Shown: piece after piece, positions 5,778 through 32,643 of the stretch
How positions within the stretch are numbered: position 1 is the first letter of the stretch
Layout: each line of letters opens with the position of its first letter
DNA from: Candidatus Pelagibacterales bacterium
GTDB lineage: Bacteria; Pseudomonadota; Alphaproteobacteria; Pelagibacterales; Pelagibacteraceae
Assembly: GCA_004213215.1 (NCBI GenBank)
Contig: SHAO01000002.1
Location: forward strand, 1 to 54,055
Direction of reading: 5' to 3'
Length of the DNA: 54,055 nt
Notes under the pieces: model-generated
What the model was told of the DNA's origin: nothing
What the model saw: the letters and a program-made list of their open reading frames with translations, nothing else
Database searches by the model: none
Made by a program: the position numbers and the translations under genes

Positions 5778-6878
5778 TTATAGATCTATAATTGCATCAC
5801 CATCTAAATAGGATGGGTACCAATATTTATTTTGGGCCAAAAGTACATTTAATTTTTTATTATTTGGTTTATAGCAAAAAGGATTATGAAGTAATTCTTT
5901 TTTAAATGGATTAAAAGAATTCATACACAATACTTTTTCTTTATCAAAACCCCTAAACTCAAATATATCACAATTTCTTCTTCTAGCTTCAGCTATATTA
6001 GTGCCAATTAAATTTTTGGATACTTCTTGCGAATGATCTAAAGTGACTAAATCGAGCAACAAAGCCGATTTTATTCCCTTTTTTAAATTATTTTTTTCAA
6101 TGCATATACTGTACCCATTTATTTTTTTATTTTTTACACTTAAGTAAATCCAAGCTTTTCTATTTTTAACAAAATAGTCTAAATGCCATTTTAATGAATC
6201 TTTGTCTCTTCGAAATAAAAACTTATTTTTTTGGGAATTTTTAATTTTTTCCCAAAAATGATTAAATTTTTTATCAAATTCACTGTGTTTTATTATATTT
6301 TTGGATGAAAATTTGTTCTTCCAAGAATTTATTTTTTTTTGAAAAAGCAGCAGTAATAAAGATGAGCAAATATTTAAAATAAATTTTTTAAAAGGAAAAG
6401 ATATATTTTTAAATAAAGATTTTGTTATATTTTTTATATTTAAAGCAATTACTAACGAATAATTTAAGCTTTCCACTGGCACTTCTTTAACTTTAATGGC
6501 TTTCATAATTTTATTACTTATTTCATTGAGGTTAGTTATCAAGAATAAATCAATACTAGATTGTGAAAAATATTTTCTTAATAATACAATTGAATGAGAT
6601 CTATATTGTTTATCTACTACCCAACCATATAGTATTGAAGAAAGATATGGTTTTTTATTTAGAAAATATTGCATCGGAAATTGTCCTATATGACCTACAA
6701 CTTTTTTATTATCTTCTATCACCCAACCTTTAGTCCATTTTATTCGGCTACTTTTTAAACTTGGATTTTTTTTCCACAAGTTAAGCCAGCGTTTATAATT
6801 TATTAAATTCATATTATGTCTTTTTAAAAGAACTTTTATTTTTTTATAATCTCTAATAGAAACATTTCTTATATTCAT
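5778..6878 (-). CDS. GNAT-like acyltransferase / hypothetical protein
   Basis: 366 aa; N-terminal GNAT-like segment (VVGHIGQFPMQYF...YGWVVDKQYRSHSIVLLRKYF). Confidence 0.5.
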   Translation of the reverse strand: MNIRNVSIRDYKKIKVLLKRHNMNLINYKRWLNLWKKNPSLKSSRIKWTKGWVIEDNKKVVGHIGQFPMQYFLNKKPYLSSILYGWVVDKQYRSHSIVLLRKYFSQSSIDLFLITNLNEISNKIMKAIKVKEVPVESLNYSLVIALNIKNITKSLFKNISFPFKKFILNICSSLLLLLFQKKINSWKNKFSSKNIIKHSEFDKKFNHFWEKIKNSQKNKFLFRRDKDSLKWHLDYFVKNRKAWIYLSVKNKKINGYSICIEKNNLKKGIKSALLLDLVTLDHSQEVSKNLIGTNIAEARRRNCDIFEFRGFDKEKVLCMNSFNPFKKELLHNPFCYKPNNKKLNVLLAQNKYWYPSYLDGDAIIDL

Positions 6879-6888
6879 GATGTTTTCA

Positions 6889-7131
6889 TTATTTGTTTTC
6901 AGCTGGAATTAGTTTTCCATCTTCGTACTTTGAAGGCGAATATTTTGTATTAGGCGAAAAATCACCATAAAATCTTAAGAATCCTAAAGCTAGTATAAAT
7001 AAAAATAAACTAATTATACAAAGTTTTATGATTGGATATTTTTTTTTTTCAAGATTCAATAACCATGTGTAAAAAAAATATAGAAAAAATGGCCCAAATA
7101 TTGCAAACAAAAGTAAGATTTTTTTAATCAT
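6889..7131 (-). CDS. small membrane protein, unknown
   Basis: 80 aa, two predicted TM segments; overlaps the next upstream gene by 8 nt. Confidence 0.55.
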   Translation of the reverse strand: MIKKILLLFAIFGPFFLYFFYTWLLNLEKKKYPIIKLCIISLFLFILALGFLRFYGDFSPNTKYSPSKYEDGKLIPAENK

Positions 7132-8062
7132 AGTATTTTATCCACCCATTTCTTTTATGATTAAAATTAAATAAATCAGGATGTATTATTTCAGCAAATA
7201 TTTCTAAAGATTCTAACAATCTTGGGCCAGGTCTATTAAAAAATTGATTTCCATCACCTACAAAAATTTTTTTATTTTTAAAAGCTTTTAAGGATTGCCA
7301 ATTATTATTTTTTTTTAAAACATTTTTTAATTCGTATTTAGTTTTTTCAATATTAAAACCACAAGGAAGAAAAATTATTATTTCAGGATCTTTTTTGACA
7401 AGTTCTTCAAACTCAGTCCAATGAGAATTTTTTCCAGATTTTCCTAAGATATTAGTTCCACCAGCTATTTCCACCATTTCTGGAATCCAATTTCCAGCCA
7501 TCATCAATGGTTCAATCCATTCAATACAGGCAACAGAAGGTTTGCTTTTTTGTTTAGAAGATAACTCTTTAATTCTTTCTAATCTCTCATTTAAATTTTT
7601 GATGAGTTTATTATTGATTTGGTTTTCTATATTAAGTTCTTTAGCTACTCTTTTTATATCATTAAAAACATCGTTTAATGTATTTGGTTGTAAAGATATT
7701 ATTTTAGTATTTTTTTTTAGATTTTTACTTACTATACTTTCTACTTCAGAAAAACTTACAGCACACACTTCACAATGTGCCTGGGTAATTATATAGTCAG
7801 GATTTAACTCTTTAAGCTTTGGTACATCCACCTTATAAACTGATAGCGAATTTTCTAATATTATATTAATTTGTTTATCAATTTCTGCACTTGTTCCATC
7901 TACATTTATTTTAGGTGAAGTTAGTTTAGCTACATGATTTAATCCATGAGGATAGTCGCATTCATGAGAACGTCCTATGATTGAATTTTTTTGGCCTAAA
8001 AAAGCAACTATCTCTGTTGCACTTGGTATGAGTGTGACAATTTTTGTAGAATTATTATTCAT
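7124..8062 (-). CDS. BtuF-like cobalamin/Fe-chelate-type periplasmic-binding-fold protein without obvious signal peptide
   Basis: 312 aa: KIVTLIPSATEIVAFLG..IIGRSHECDYP..PDYIITQAHCEVCAVS..EWIEPLMMAGNWIPEMVEIAGG..NRPGPRLLESLEIFAEIIHP. Confidence 0.8.
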   Translation of the reverse strand: MNNNSTKIVTLIPSATEIVAFLGQKNSIIGRSHECDYPHGLNHVAKLTSPKINVDGTSAEIDKQINIILENSLSVYKVDVPKLKELNPDYIITQAHCEVCAVSFSEVESIVSKNLKKNTKIISLQPNTLNDVFNDIKRVAKELNIENQINNKLIKNLNERLERIKELSSKQKSKPSVACIEWIEPLMMAGNWIPEMVEIAGGTNILGKSGKNSHWTEFEELVKKDPEIIIFLPCGFNIEKTKYELKNVLKKNNNWQSLKAFKNKKIFVGDGNQFFNRPGPRLLESLEIFAEIIHPDLFNFNHKRNGWIKYYD

Positions 8063-8133: not shown

Positions 8134-10566
8134 ATGAAATCAAAAGCCAAAGTAGTCGTAATTGGAGGAGGGGTGGTCGGAGTTAGTATGCTCTACCATT
8201 TAGCAAAAAAAGGCTGGTCTGATGTTGTTTGCGTTGAAAGAAAAGAGTTAACTTCTGGATCAACATGGCATGCAGCGGGATTGTTGCCTCTATTCAACAT
8301 GAGTTATTCTGTAGGACAGTTACATAAGTATGCTGTTGATTTTTATAAAACTTTAGAAAAAGAAACAGGAAAAAGTGTTGGGTTTAGTGTGGTTTCAAAT
8401 ATTCGTTTGGCAAGCACAAAAGATAGAATGGATGAATATCATCAATATGCTGGAGTAGCTAAAACAATTGGCGTTGATGTAAAATTTTTAACGCCTAAAC
8501 AAGTAAAAGAGATTTGGCCTTTATGTAATGTCGAAGACTTGGTGGGTGCAATACAGCATCCTGAGGATGGATATATTCAACCAGCAGATTTAACGCAGGC
8601 TTTAGCCGCAGGCGCTAGAAATAGAGGAGCAGAAATTTATAGAAACACAACAGTAATAGGAATTAAACAAACAAAAAATGGCTGGGTCGTAGAAACCGAT
8701 AAAGGTACTATTGAATGCGAACATGTTGTTTCGTGTACTGGAAATTTTGCTAGACAAACTGGTAAAATGGTTGGTCTTGAAATTCCAGCAATTCCAGTAG
8801 AGCATCAATATATAGTTACAGAACCCCACCCCGAAATTCAAAAAAGAAAGAAGGATGGTTTACCAGAAATGGGCGTTCTTAGAGATAGTGATAGTAGATG
8901 GTATATGCGAGAAGAAGCTGGAGGATTAATTTTAGGTCCATATGAAGACGGTGCACCATGCTGTTATGTTGATGGTCCTTCAAAAGATTCAGAATATGAA
9001 TTATTTCAAGAAGATCTAGATAGACTTGCTCCACATATAGAAGGAGCTATTCATCGCGTTCCTGCTTTTGGTGAAGTAGGAGTTAAAAAAGTTTATAATG
9101 GAGCTATTTGTTATACACCAGATGGAAATCCAATTGTGGGCCCCGCTTGGGGTTTAAAAAATTTTTGGATCAATGAAGGACATAGTTTTGGTATTACTGC
9201 AGCAGGTGGAGCAGGCTGGCAACTTGCTGAATGGATAGTTGATGGTGAACCAACAGTTGATATGCTTGGTGTTGAGCCGAGAAGGTATGGAGATTATGCA
9301 ACCAAATCTTACTTAAAAGAAAAAAATGAAGAAGCATATAACCATGTATTTAAAGTCCATTACCCAGATGAAGAAAGGGGAGCTGCTAGAGAATTAAGAA
9401 CTTCGCCTTGTTATGATAGAATGAAAAGTCTAGGTGCAGTTTTTGGTCAAAAATTTGGCTGGGAGAGACCAAACTTTTTTGCAGTTGATGGAATGGAACA
9501 AAAAGACGATTGGTCTTTTAGAAGATCTAAATGGTTTAAAGCAATAGAAAAAGAGTGCAAAAATGTTAGAGAAAATGTTGGGTTATTAGATATGACAGCA
9601 TTTGCTAAATGTAGAATAAAAGGACCAGGAGCCGAAAATTTTTTAGATTATTTAGTAGCTAATAAACTTCCTAAAAAAATAGGAAGAATAGGTTTATGTC
9701 ATGCTCTAAACACAAAAGGAGGAGTTCACTCTGAATTTACAATCATGAGGGAAGATGAAGATAGTTTTTATTTAGTTTCTGCAGGAGCAAATCAAAGATT
9801 AGATCATGATTGGATTAATAAATGGATGCCAAAAGATGGAAGTGTTCAATTTGAAAATTTAACTAACTCAGTAGGTGTTTTAGTTATATCAGGCCCAAAG
9901 GCTAGAGAGTTAATCTCGAGAGTTTCAAAAGATGATTTTTCAAATGATAATTTTAAATGGTTAAGTGCAAAAAATATAAATGTTGGAAACGCACCAGTTA
10001 ATGCAATGAGAGTAAATTTTGTAGGTGAACTAGGATGGGAATTACATCATCCAATTGAATACCAAAATCATATTTTTGATAAATTAATAGAAGCTGGAAA
10101 AGATTTGGGACTCAAACCTTATGGGATTAGAGCTATGAATAGTTTAAGGCTTGAAAAATCTTATAAATTGGTTGGAACTGAACTATCAATTGAATATTCC
10201 CCTTATGAATCTGGATTAGATAGATTTATTCATCCGAATAAAGGAAATTTTATAGGATTAGAGGCTTTAAATAGATGGAGAGAAAAAGGTTTTAACAATA
10301 AATTAGTAACTCTAGAAATTCATGACGTAAAAGATGCAGATGTATTAGGAAATAATCCAATTTACGATAATGGAAAAGTTGTTGGAAGAGCAACAGGAGG
10401 AGATTTTGGTTTTAGATTAAGTAAATCAATAGCTCTAGGAATGGTTAAACCAGAGATTGCGACAACAGGTCAAAAATTGAAAATTGATATTCTTGGTAAA
10501 ATGTATGATGTTACTGTTTTAGAAGAGAGTCCTTATGATCCAGAAAATAAATTATTAAGAGCTTAA
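8134..10566 (+). CDS. FAD-dependent dimethylglycine/sarcosine dehydrogenase-like protein (DAO + GcvT domains)
   Basis: 810 aa; VVVIGGGVVGVSMLYHLAKKGW..LTSGSTWHAAGLLP then C-terminal aminomethyltransferase domain. Confidence 0.9.
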   Translation: MKSKAKVVVIGGGVVGVSMLYHLAKKGWSDVVCVERKELTSGSTWHAAGLLPLFNMSYSVGQLHKYAVDFYKTLEKETGKSVGFSVVSNIRLASTKDRMDEYHQYAGVAKTIGVDVKFLTPKQVKEIWPLCNVEDLVGAIQHPEDGYIQPADLTQALAAGARNRGAEIYRNTTVIGIKQTKNGWVVETDKGTIECEHVVSCTGNFARQTGKMVGLEIPAIPVEHQYIVTEPHPEIQKRKKDGLPEMGVLRDSDSRWYMREEAGGLILGPYEDGAPCCYVDGPSKDSEYELFQEDLDRLAPHIEGAIHRVPAFGEVGVKKVYNGAICYTPDGNPIVGPAWGLKNFWINEGHSFGITAAGGAGWQLAEWIVDGEPTVDMLGVEPRRYGDYATKSYLKEKNEEAYNHVFKVHYPDEERGAARELRTSPCYDRMKSLGAVFGQKFGWERPNFFAVDGMEQKDDWSFRRSKWFKAIEKECKNVRENVGLLDMTAFAKCRIKGPGAENFLDYLVANKLPKKIGRIGLCHALNTKGGVHSEFTIMREDEDSFYLVSAGANQRLDHDWINKWMPKDGSVQFENLTNSVGVLVISGPKARELISRVSKDDFSNDNFKWLSAKNINVGNAPVNAMRVNFVGELGWELHHPIEYQNHIFDKLIEAGKDLGLKPYGIRAMNSLRLEKSYKLVGTELSIEYSPYESGLDRFIHPNKGNFIGLEALNRWREKGFNNKLVTLEIHDVKDADVLGNNPIYDNGKVVGRATGGDFGFRLSKSIALGMVKPEIATTGQKLKIDILGKMYDVTVLEESPYDPENKLLRA

Positions 10567-30379: not shown

Positions 30380-30542
30380 AAGGAGTTTATATTAAAGGGT
30401 GACTTAAGGGGCAACCCTTAACTGGCCAGACAAAGAAAGACCGAGAGGTTCAAGCTTGTAGGGCAGAAAACTCCGCAAAGTAGCGCTTAACATAGCGGGG
30501 TGGCGGGTTCGGCGGTAGCGCATTACAACGACGAGCCAAAAA
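30380..30542 (+). ncRNA. candidate structured non-coding RNA of unassigned family
   Basis: G/C-rich island in an AT-rich intergenic region. Perfect hairpin TTAAGGG-GCAA-CCCTTAA (30404-30421), long-range GGAGTTT/AAACTCC (30382-30388 / 30468-30474), GGTTCG/CGAGCC (30506-30511 / 30532-30537). No convincing ORF. Strand inferred from the downstream hairpin and U-tract. Confidence 0.65.
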
Positions 30543-30545
30543 TTG

Positions 30546-30584
30546 AAAGTTCTAGCACGAAAGTGTTAGAACTTTTGGTTTTTT
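30546..30584 (+). terminator. hairpin terminator of the candidate ncRNA
   Basis: AAAGTTCTAGCAC-GAAA-GTGTTAGAACTTT (13 bp with one G-U, GAAA tetraloop) followed by tggtttttt. Confidence 0.8.
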
Positions 30585-31290
30585 AGGCCTGTCTTTTTTT
30601 CCAAAATAGAAATGTTAGCAAGTAAAAGGAAACTACGCCAATAAAGTAATTCCACTCCAAGGCATGTTTAAAATGTGTGTGACCACTTGATGTTAATATA
30701 GGTAAAGAAGCTATAGCTACAATAGATAGCAAAGCAACTAATATCATTTTAAATATTAGAACCTTTTTATTAATGAAATCTAAAATTTTATTTTTTACTT
30801 TAAAGAGAAAAATTACTAACAACGCTTGGGCTATTATTTCAAATACAATGAATCCTAGTAAGATAAATCTTCTAAAAAATTTATATAAGTCATACTCAAA
30901 ATTAACTCCTAAAAAAATGGAATGAGCAATTAAAAATATAGCTGAACTTACACCAAAAAATAAAAATTTATAATTTGTTTCTTTTTGATTATTGATTGAC
31001 TGAGCCATATTGTTATTTGCAAACCAATATTTAATTAAAAGAAAAGCTGTTATTATCATTCCTGGTTTAAAAATAAGATAGGTGGGGTAATTTCTAGCTG
31101 TTCTACTTATTGATACACCACCATCAATGTATGGTATAGTAAAAGCACTTCTACCCAATTGATCTACTACAAAAATTGTATTTTCAAAAATTAGATAGTT
31201 TACTGAAATAAACAGACAAATATTTAGGATAATTACAGGTAAGAAAAAAATCCAAATACTTATTCTTCTTATACGGATAATCTCTTCCAC
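30583..31290 (-). CDS. multi-TM membrane protein, unknown
   Basis: 235 aa, about 6 TM; no family recognised. Confidence 0.6.
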   Translation of the reverse strand: MEEIIRIRRISIWIFFLPVIILNICLFISVNYLIFENTIFVVDQLGRSAFTIPYIDGGVSISRTARNYPTYLIFKPGMIITAFLLIKYWFANNNMAQSINNQKETNYKFLFFGVSSAIFLIAHSIFLGVNFEYDLYKFFRRFILLGFIVFEIIAQALLVIFLFKVKNKILDFINKKVLIFKMILVALLSIVAIASLPILTSSGHTHFKHALEWNYFIGVVSFYLLTFLFWKKRQA

Positions 31291-31298
31291 TAGATCTA

Positions 31299-31382
31299 CT
31301 ATTTTCGTTTATTTCTTTTACGAGCTCTTCTCTTTTTTGAACCCCTTTTTCTACGTCCCCTGTGTTTTTTTGGGTACCCCAT
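31299..31382 (-). CDS. 27-aa hyperbasic microprotein
   Basis: Reverse strand ATG..TAG: MGYPKKHRGRRKRGSKKRRARKRNKRK*; AAGGA upstream of the ATG; 8 nt before the downstream minus-strand membrane gene. Not in ORF track. Confidence 0.6.
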   Translation of the reverse strand: MGYPKKHRGRRKRGSKKRRARKRNKRK

Positions 31383-31464
31383 AATTTTTTTTATCCTTAA
31401 TAATTATATTAATTGACCTTATTATGTGGATATAGCATTGTCTTATTTTGTTATCAAATGTTTT

Positions 31465-32643
31465 ATGAAAAAATCAATTAAAACTTTTTTAAAAACTGCA
31501 GCAAAGGATTATCTATCTAGATCGGTAAATCCTCCTGTGGTGCGGGCATCGACAATACTGTTTAAAACGATGCAAGAATTAAGAAAGCATCAAAAAGATA
31601 TAGCAAAAGGAAAAGATGTTGAGCATTGGGATTACGGAAGACAAGGTACTCAAACAACAGTTCAATTACAAAAGTTACTTAGAGGATTAGAAGAAGCTTA
31701 CCAAGTCTTTTTGACGCCTACTGGATTTAGTGCAGTTGCTTTAGCAATAATGAGTATATGTAGACCAGGTGACGAAATAGTAATTTCTGATGGTGTGTAC
31801 AGACCAACGCAAAAACTTACAGATGATTTACTTAAAGAATTTAATGTGAAGGCAGTTTGGTATAATCCAAATAAATTTGAAGATCTAAAAAATAAAATTA
31901 CTAAAAAAACGAAATTAATTTATGTTGAAAATCCTGGTAGCAATACTTTTGAAATGCAGGATCTTGGTAAAGTAGTTTCTTTAGCTAAAAGTAAAAATAT
32001 TTTAACAGCTATAGATAATACTTGGGCAACAGCATATTTTTTTAAGCCTTTAAAATTAGGCTTTGATATAGCAATTACTTCTGCGACTAAATATTATTCT
32101 GGACATAGTGATGTTATGGGTGGAACTGTTGCTGTAAATAAAAAAGCTTATAAAAAAGTTTGGTGGTACAATCATGTTTCTGGATATCGTCTATCTCCAG
32201 ATGATGCTTATTTGATTATAAGGGGCCTAAGAACTTTAGATGTAAGAATGGATAAACATCAAGCAAGCACAAAGAAAGTTATTAATTTTCTAAAAACGCA
32301 AAAAAAAGTGTCTAAAATATTATATCCTTACAAAACTTCTTCAAAAGAATTTAAGTTATGGAAAAAATATTATTCAGGAGCCTCTGGTTTGGTAAGTTTA
32401 ATTATTAAAAGTAATAATAAAAATTCAGTATACAAATTTGTAAATACATTGGAGTTATTTGGGATTGGTTATAGCTGGGGAGGTTTTGAAAGTCTTGCGG
32501 TTTATACTGATCCTGTAGAATTAGGAAATAGACGATATTTTAAATTAGAAAAAAATGAACATCTTGTTCGTCTGCATATTGGTCTTGAAGAACCAAAAGA
32601 TTTAATTAGCGATTTAAGAAGTTCATTAAAATTTGTTAAATGA
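31465..32643 (+). CDS. metC: cystathionine beta-lyase-type PLP enzyme
   Basis: Cys/Met-metabolism PLP family: WDYGRQGTQTTVQLQKLLRGLE..YVENPGSNTFEMQDL..AIDNTWATAYFFKPLKLGFDIAITSATKYYSGHSDVMGG. Confidence 0.9.
   Translation: MKKSIKTFLKTAAKDYLSRSVNPPVVRASTILFKTMQELRKHQKDIAKGKDVEHWDYGRQGTQTTVQLQKLLRGLEEAYQVFLTPTGFSAVALAIMSICRPGDEIVISDGVYRPTQKLTDDLLKEFNVKAVWYNPNKFEDLKNKITKKTKLIYVENPGSNTFEMQDLGKVVSLAKSKNILTAIDNTWATAYFFKPLKLGFDIAITSATKYYSGHSDVMGGTVAVNKKAYKKVWWYNHVSGYRLSPDDAYLIIRGLRTLDVRMDKHQASTKKVINFLKTQKKVSKILYPYKTSSKEFKLWKKYYSGASGLVSLIIKSNNKNSVYKFVNTLELFGIGYSWGGFESLAVYTDPVELGNRRYFKLEKNEHLVRLHIGLEEPKDLISDLRSSLKFVK

Follow-up and report, generated by a model that had tools for sequence, protein, structure and literature searches.

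A tightly constrained 27-residue basic microprotein of Pelagibacteraceae and the HIMB59 order has phage homologs and is a candidate ribosome-binding protein

Introduction

SAR11 belongs to the most abundant bacteria described, with streamlined genomes in which each conserved gene matters. The closest described counterparts of the gene analysed here, a 27-codon frame in a window of 54,055 nucleotides (the whole stretch of DNA analysed) from a Pelagibacteraceae genome, are very small and highly basic ribosomal proteins. bTHX, which is the 30S protein Thx of Thermus and PSRP-4/bTHXc of plastids, shares with the microprotein its length of 27 aa, a Met-Gly start, a lysine-run end and a very basic composition, but its GD, RGK-W and YGK-RP pattern is missing from the microprotein. 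The group of bS22, mS38 (AURKAIP1, COX24) and eL41 is likewise characterized by a helical core of 24-33 aa with about 60% Lys/Arg that has been missed by annotation and family models. In contrast to the microprotein, these proteins occur in different clades and lack a YPKKHRGRRKxGS block, and shuffle tests of low power showed no similarity between them and it that depends on residue order. In Borrelia, bS22 (61% Lys/Arg) was unannotated until it was revealed by cryo-EM (PMC10618245), and thus provides a precedent for proteins of this kind being missed.

Viruses encode the ribosomal proteins bS21, bL9 and bL12, and bS21 from a pelagiphage becomes part of E. coli ribosomes (PMC6375957). Furthermore, phages carry translation cassettes (PMC7162821). 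The microprotein resembles these systems as a putative host translation-type gene present in aquatic phages, including marine alphaproteobacterial types, and its phage copies have C-terminal extensions and tRNA, tmRNA, RNA ligase and PTH2 genes as neighbours, as in such cassettes. It is not among the virus-encoded ribosomal proteins reported previously (PMC6375957), and we infer its ribosome membership here. Because phages carry copies, some of them inside protein-synthesis gene clusters, the likeliest reading is a ribosome-binding protein that has been overlooked, and we consider it probable, with some reserve, that it functions as a lineage-specific accessory ribosomal protein or ribosome-bound translation protein.

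Gene locus and expression signals

The microprotein gene extends from ATG to TAG on the minus strand (31382..31299) and encodes MGYPKKHRGRRKRGSKKRRARKRNKRK, with Lys or Arg in 17/27 residues (63% K/R). Re-reading of this strand reproduced exactly the frame and Lys/Arg count given in the first-pass annotation, as well as the upstream AAGGA and the 8-nt gap to the next same-strand gene described there. The AAGGA is a Shine-Dalgarno-like motif at 31398..31394 (minus), 11 nt 5' of the ATG, and the downstream gene encodes a predicted membrane-type protein of 235 aa (30583..31290, minus) with a GTG start at 31290, 8 nt past the microprotein stop. We do not consider this neighbour part of the microprotein system. 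Within the 54-kb window, the microprotein gene is the sole ATG-initiated ORF in the 20-45 aa range in which half or more of the residues are Lys/Arg, and it lies outside any rRNA or ribosomal-protein operon. An IMES-2 structured RNA was identified nearby at 30397-30539 (plus; Rfam RF02035, 133 bits, E 2e-35), between an mnmA-like gene and the 235-aa ORF.

Upstream of the microprotein gene, a -35 element TTGATA (31457..31452, minus) is separated by 17 nt from a -10 element TATATC (31434..31429, minus), which is preceded by TGC (extended -10). Of 27 Pelagibacteraceae loci, 21 retain this TTGA...TATATC block, which ends 39-52 nt upstream of the microprotein ATG; the TATATC element is missing from the output of a generic promoter scan because that scan demands T at position 6. 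Shine-Dalgarno sequences of the AGGAG/AAGGA type are present at most loci and extend to AGGAGG/AAGGAG in many relatives, with none of this type at a few divergent relatives (L019, L023-L025). Judged by these motifs, the gene has its own conserved, putative sigma-70-type promoter and Shine-Dalgarno sequence. The divergent upstream neighbour is a cystathionine beta-lyase-like (metC-type) gene at 31466..32643 (plus), named by reading its sequence only. In the ORF list this gene starts at GTG 31426 (plus), within the microprotein promoter region; ATG 31466 is the likelier start, and the microprotein promoter sits ahead of this ATG.

Sequence conservation and purifying selection

Homologs were found in 27 of 60 relatives, all of full length and free of internal stops except for one edge-truncated match. 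Their aligned codons share a common ATG and a common length of 27 codons, and differ mostly at synonymous positions, with pS of 0.57, pN of 0.065 and dN/dS of about 0.06 over all pairs (NG86). Neither loss of the start nor a dN/dS near 1, which the first-pass annotation had named as grounds for discarding the gene, was observed. Recurrence of frame, start and length in these relatives and in 164/198 Pelagibacterales genomes, with mostly synonymous changes, is more than chance would give, and the 27-codon frame is a genuine gene under purifying selection. The same synonymous/nonsynonymous pattern ruled out a structured RNA in place of a protein. Selection is strong and comparable with that on small ribosomal proteins: with one set of Pelagibacteraceae genomes used for all three genes, the microprotein has a pN/pS of 0.11-0.12, against 0.23 for bL34 and 0.15 for bL36. 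The confidence intervals overlap, and the constraint on the microprotein is thus no weaker than on these two proven ribosomal proteins.

Across 29 genomes from two orders, 16 of the first 19 positions are invariant, and the N-terminal core reads M-G-Y-P-K-K-H-R-G-R-R-K-x-G-S. Variation is confined to position 13 (usually M/I/V/L), positions 16 and 17, and the tail from position 20 onward. At positions 5, 6, 8, 10, 11, 12, 18 and 19, Lys and Arg are never exchanged, although the codons mostly vary.

Comparison with tiny ribosomal proteins and other basic proteins

Searches of Pfam, NCBIfam, PHROG and PDB with the ORF, its variants and profiles returned nothing relevant, in agreement with the earlier statement that no family was recognised. 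The bTHX model TIGR04560 matched neither the ORF in its own genome nor its relatives, with no genome above the cut-off, and the bTHX alignment score was below the mean of column-shuffled sequences; a bTHX identity is thus not supported. Column-shuffle tests against bS22, eL41, bTHX, bL34 and bL35 gave no signal, and the positive control was weak. The models PF08213 (COX24_C) and NF047430 did not match the microprotein either, and COX24_C gave no match in its relatives. However, the true bS22 of Flavobacterium, known from a solved ribosome (7jil), also lacks a Pfam or NCBIfam match, and library silence on bS22 membership is thus uninformative.

A specific sub-case of the ribosome-bound explanation is that the microprotein is the SAR11/HIMB59 version of bS22/mS38, diverged in sequence and located in the h2/h27/h44/h45 pocket, which is also that of eL41. 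The two are alike in size class, charge and a helix-forming half; in the hhalign register the hydrophobic position 13 (M/I/V/L) lies opposite a conserved M/V/I of bS22, and the hhalign score resembles that between the bS22 of Bacteroidota and of Actinobacteria. Yet this similarity is no better than composition would give (z 0.24; 112/200 column shuffles match the score), and nothing in bS22 corresponds to the frozen YPKKHRGRRK block or to G14-S15. Since two true bS22 groups, compared as a positive control, also match each other only weakly (z 0.6; 26/200 shuffles score as well), the shuffle test has almost no power. On balance, we regard membership of this particular family as unlikely.

About equally improbable is a protamine- or histone-like nucleoid protein, or a general RNA chaperone, without a defined binding site. 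Its composition and predicted basic helix would suit such a role, and basic proteins compact nucleic acid in phages and bacteria alike. In a protamine-like protein, however, the sequence would vary while the composition is kept, whereas here the first 19 positions are conserved residue by residue, including Y3-P4, H7, G9 and G14-S15, and Lys/Arg identity is fixed at eight of them. Moreover, the gene is present in one copy, and phage copies sit between tRNA genes. The proposal in the first-pass annotation of a nucleic-acid-binding protein of bTHX-like or protamine-like type therefore stands in part. The nucleic-acid-binding type, and indirectly its tiny ribosomal kind, is retained, while neither specific comparison is supported: similarity to bTHX is below that of column-shuffled sequence, and the N-terminal two thirds are almost frozen, which disfavours a protamine.

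Distribution and genomic context in bacteria

Of the 198 Pelagibacterales genomes that reach a completeness of 85% or more, 164 contain the microprotein gene. Among the misses listed, 16 belong to Pelagibacteraceae and the rest to a second family (f2). Within Pelagibacteraceae, its share among genomes of at least 85% completeness is about 164/180 (~91%), with a denominator in which the assignment of 14 unlisted genomes to either family follows from list order, a share that missing parts of the assemblies would by themselves account for. Elsewhere in the class, real homologs were identified only in families f27 and f122, which both belong to the HIMB59/AEGEAN-169 order. Here, the gene was found in 99/120 genomes, and in 20/20 at completeness of at least 90%. 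Named records for the two sequence types are HIMB59 MED-G104 (L135) and MarineAlpha5_Bin5 (L163). HIMB59 is synonymous with AEGEAN-169, and how it is related to SAR11 is disputed (PMC10308909). Both Pelagibacteraceae and the HIMB59 order are very abundant in the ocean, and in both the gene occurs once per genome and always encodes 27 aa from a common start. Weak class-wide matches in other families (e.g. L070) covered part of the profile only, mostly within larger frames, and were rejected. A phylum-wide profile search yielded matches only in the own genome and in one Pelagibacteraceae genome.

The sister family f2 (G036-G059) lacks the microprotein although the more distant HIMB59 order has copies: no homolog was detected in any of its 24 genomes in the search of 60 relatives, or in 12 genomes when up to 3 mismatches were allowed. 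This pattern reflects either loss or two gains, perhaps phage-mediated.

In Pelagibacteraceae, the microprotein gene is located beside mnmA-like and mostly metC-like genes, and homologs of the 235-aa neighbour are found near it in most loci, with the exception of g5, g9 and g12. Loci of the HIMB59 order lie elsewhere, next to MFS/MsrB-like genes at L135 and LysR/SbmA-like genes at L069 and L163 (all gene names by reading sequence), and lack the 235-aa homolog. Coupling to the downstream gene is thus not general, since several Pelagibacteraceae have a different gene in this position and the HIMB59 order has no such neighbour.

Phage homologs and their gene context

Successive pattern and profile scans of IMG/VR identified 10, then 26 and then 32 viral contigs with microprotein homologs, which are newly found here. 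The viral proteins comprise 28-40 aa with a longer, variable C-terminal tail and share the core M-x-Y-P-K-K-[HR]-[RK]-G-R-R-K-x-G-S-x-x-R-[RK], the invariance of which is partly built into the DNA search patterns, with H7R and R8K variants appearing where the pattern allowed them. Over residues 1-25, the copies at L208 and L211 do not differ from the protein of f122 hosts in the HIMB59 order, which points to transfer between host and phage. Where checked, the carrier contigs are real phages, encoding terminase, portal and capsid (L210), integrase, HNH endonuclease and exonuclease (L211), T4-type portal, head and terminase proteins (L215, 96.9 kb), a baseplate wedge (L219 contig) or a phage ATP-dependent protease (L242 contig); among the proteins tested from the 21-kb L221 contig, no phage hallmark was found. 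The viral homologs are known from metagenomic contigs alone. None was present in the isolated phages tested, which included those akin to the carriers (HTVC023P, HTVC027P, 023Pt_psg01, DSL-LC04 and CRP-902) as well as large phages that carry a PTH2 or HD gene (Atu_ph07, Phosso, CcrSC and others). A tblastn search of GenBank phages with the peptide gave no match, which is uninformative because the low-complexity filter was on.

tRNA clusters are common in large phages. At L215, two tRNA-Ser genes (7144-7228 and 6786-6874) flank the microprotein gene (7039-7125, minus), and an RNA ligase gene comes next; the cluster comprises 10 tRNAs, a tmRNA and the RNA ligase. At L221, the microprotein gene is located at 2565-2663, with tRNA-Met on one side and tRNA-Ser on the other, in a cluster that comprises 13 tRNAs, a tmRNA and a PTH2-type peptidyl-tRNA hydrolase (the latter from L241, same contig), and at L219 it likewise lies between tRNA-Ser and tRNA-Met. 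Gene order at L215 and L221 is similar, and the tRNA-cluster contexts may therefore represent one lineage plus L219.

Other carriers show different arrangements. Phages of the L205/L210/L213/L220 type have the gene in the head module, where its ATG overlaps the last codon of a 154-aa gene, the stop, and GroES-like, scaffold and capsid genes lie downstream; at L210 this overlap falls in a pelagiphage-related head module at 7405-7973 (plus) and suggests possible translational coupling with the 154-aa gene. HTVC023P and HTVC027P contain other small basic ORFs at the corresponding spot. At L211 and L214, the microprotein gene adjoins an HNH endonuclease gene. No tRNAs were found near the gene in the L205/L210/L213 type or at L211/L214. 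One or two phage lineages thus show a strong association of the gene with translation, whereas others show none. A phage virion or packaging protein (a DNA charge neutraliser or scaffold component) domesticated by two bacterial orders would fit the head-module copies upstream of GroES-like, scaffold and capsid genes, but is very unlikely given the copies of other phage lineages in early regions or tRNA clusters, the lack of homologs in the related isolates HTVC023P and HTVC027P, and the near-universality and purifying selection in hosts, which argue for a cellular role.

Proposed role on the ribosome

A near-universal, tightly constrained gene that is missing from the three family libraries searched represents a gap in the SAR11 parts list. 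Its constraint, position-specific choice of Lys or Arg and phage copies in tRNA/tmRNA clusters lend indirect support to a tiny ribosomal protein. More tentatively, and with nearly even confidence, we suggest that it may be a ribosomal protein not described before, which would be universal among the Pelagibacteraceae of SAR11 and in the HIMB59 order and carried by aquatic phages to equip or reprogram host ribosomes. Should it prove ribosomal, two orders of disputed relationship (PMC10308909) would have a lineage-specific ribosome component in common, and the phage copies would be a case of viruses carrying an unrecognised ribosomal component.

As a ribosome-bound protein, its frozen N-terminal half would lie extended in a specific, as yet hypothetical rRNA groove, while a basic helix from Gly14-Ser15 onward would pack along rRNA. 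Its own, presumably strong promoter would match its production to that of ribosomes, which it could stabilise or tune in both Pelagibacteraceae and the HIMB59 order. Phages that infect aquatic bacteria would have acquired the gene as others carry bS21, bL9 or bL12. They would have kept the putative rRNA-contacting core, with a C-terminal tail that is variable and longer, and would presumably benefit by keeping or biasing translation during infection. An AlphaFold model of a 40-aa phage copy, only suggestive as a monomer model of a basic peptide, has residues 1-14 non-helical and residues 15-39 in a helix (mean pLDDT 85, pTM 0.42).

Additional features of the phage translation clusters

A GOLLD RNA (RF02032, above the gathering score) co-locates with the translation cluster of L215 at 9666-10138 (minus), where it overlaps a tRNA-Ser gene. 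The PTH2 gene at L241 (6313-6630, plus) encodes the archaeal/eukaryotic type of the enzyme, and its only GenBank relatives are from the jumbo phages Atu_ph07 and Phosso (about 42% identity).
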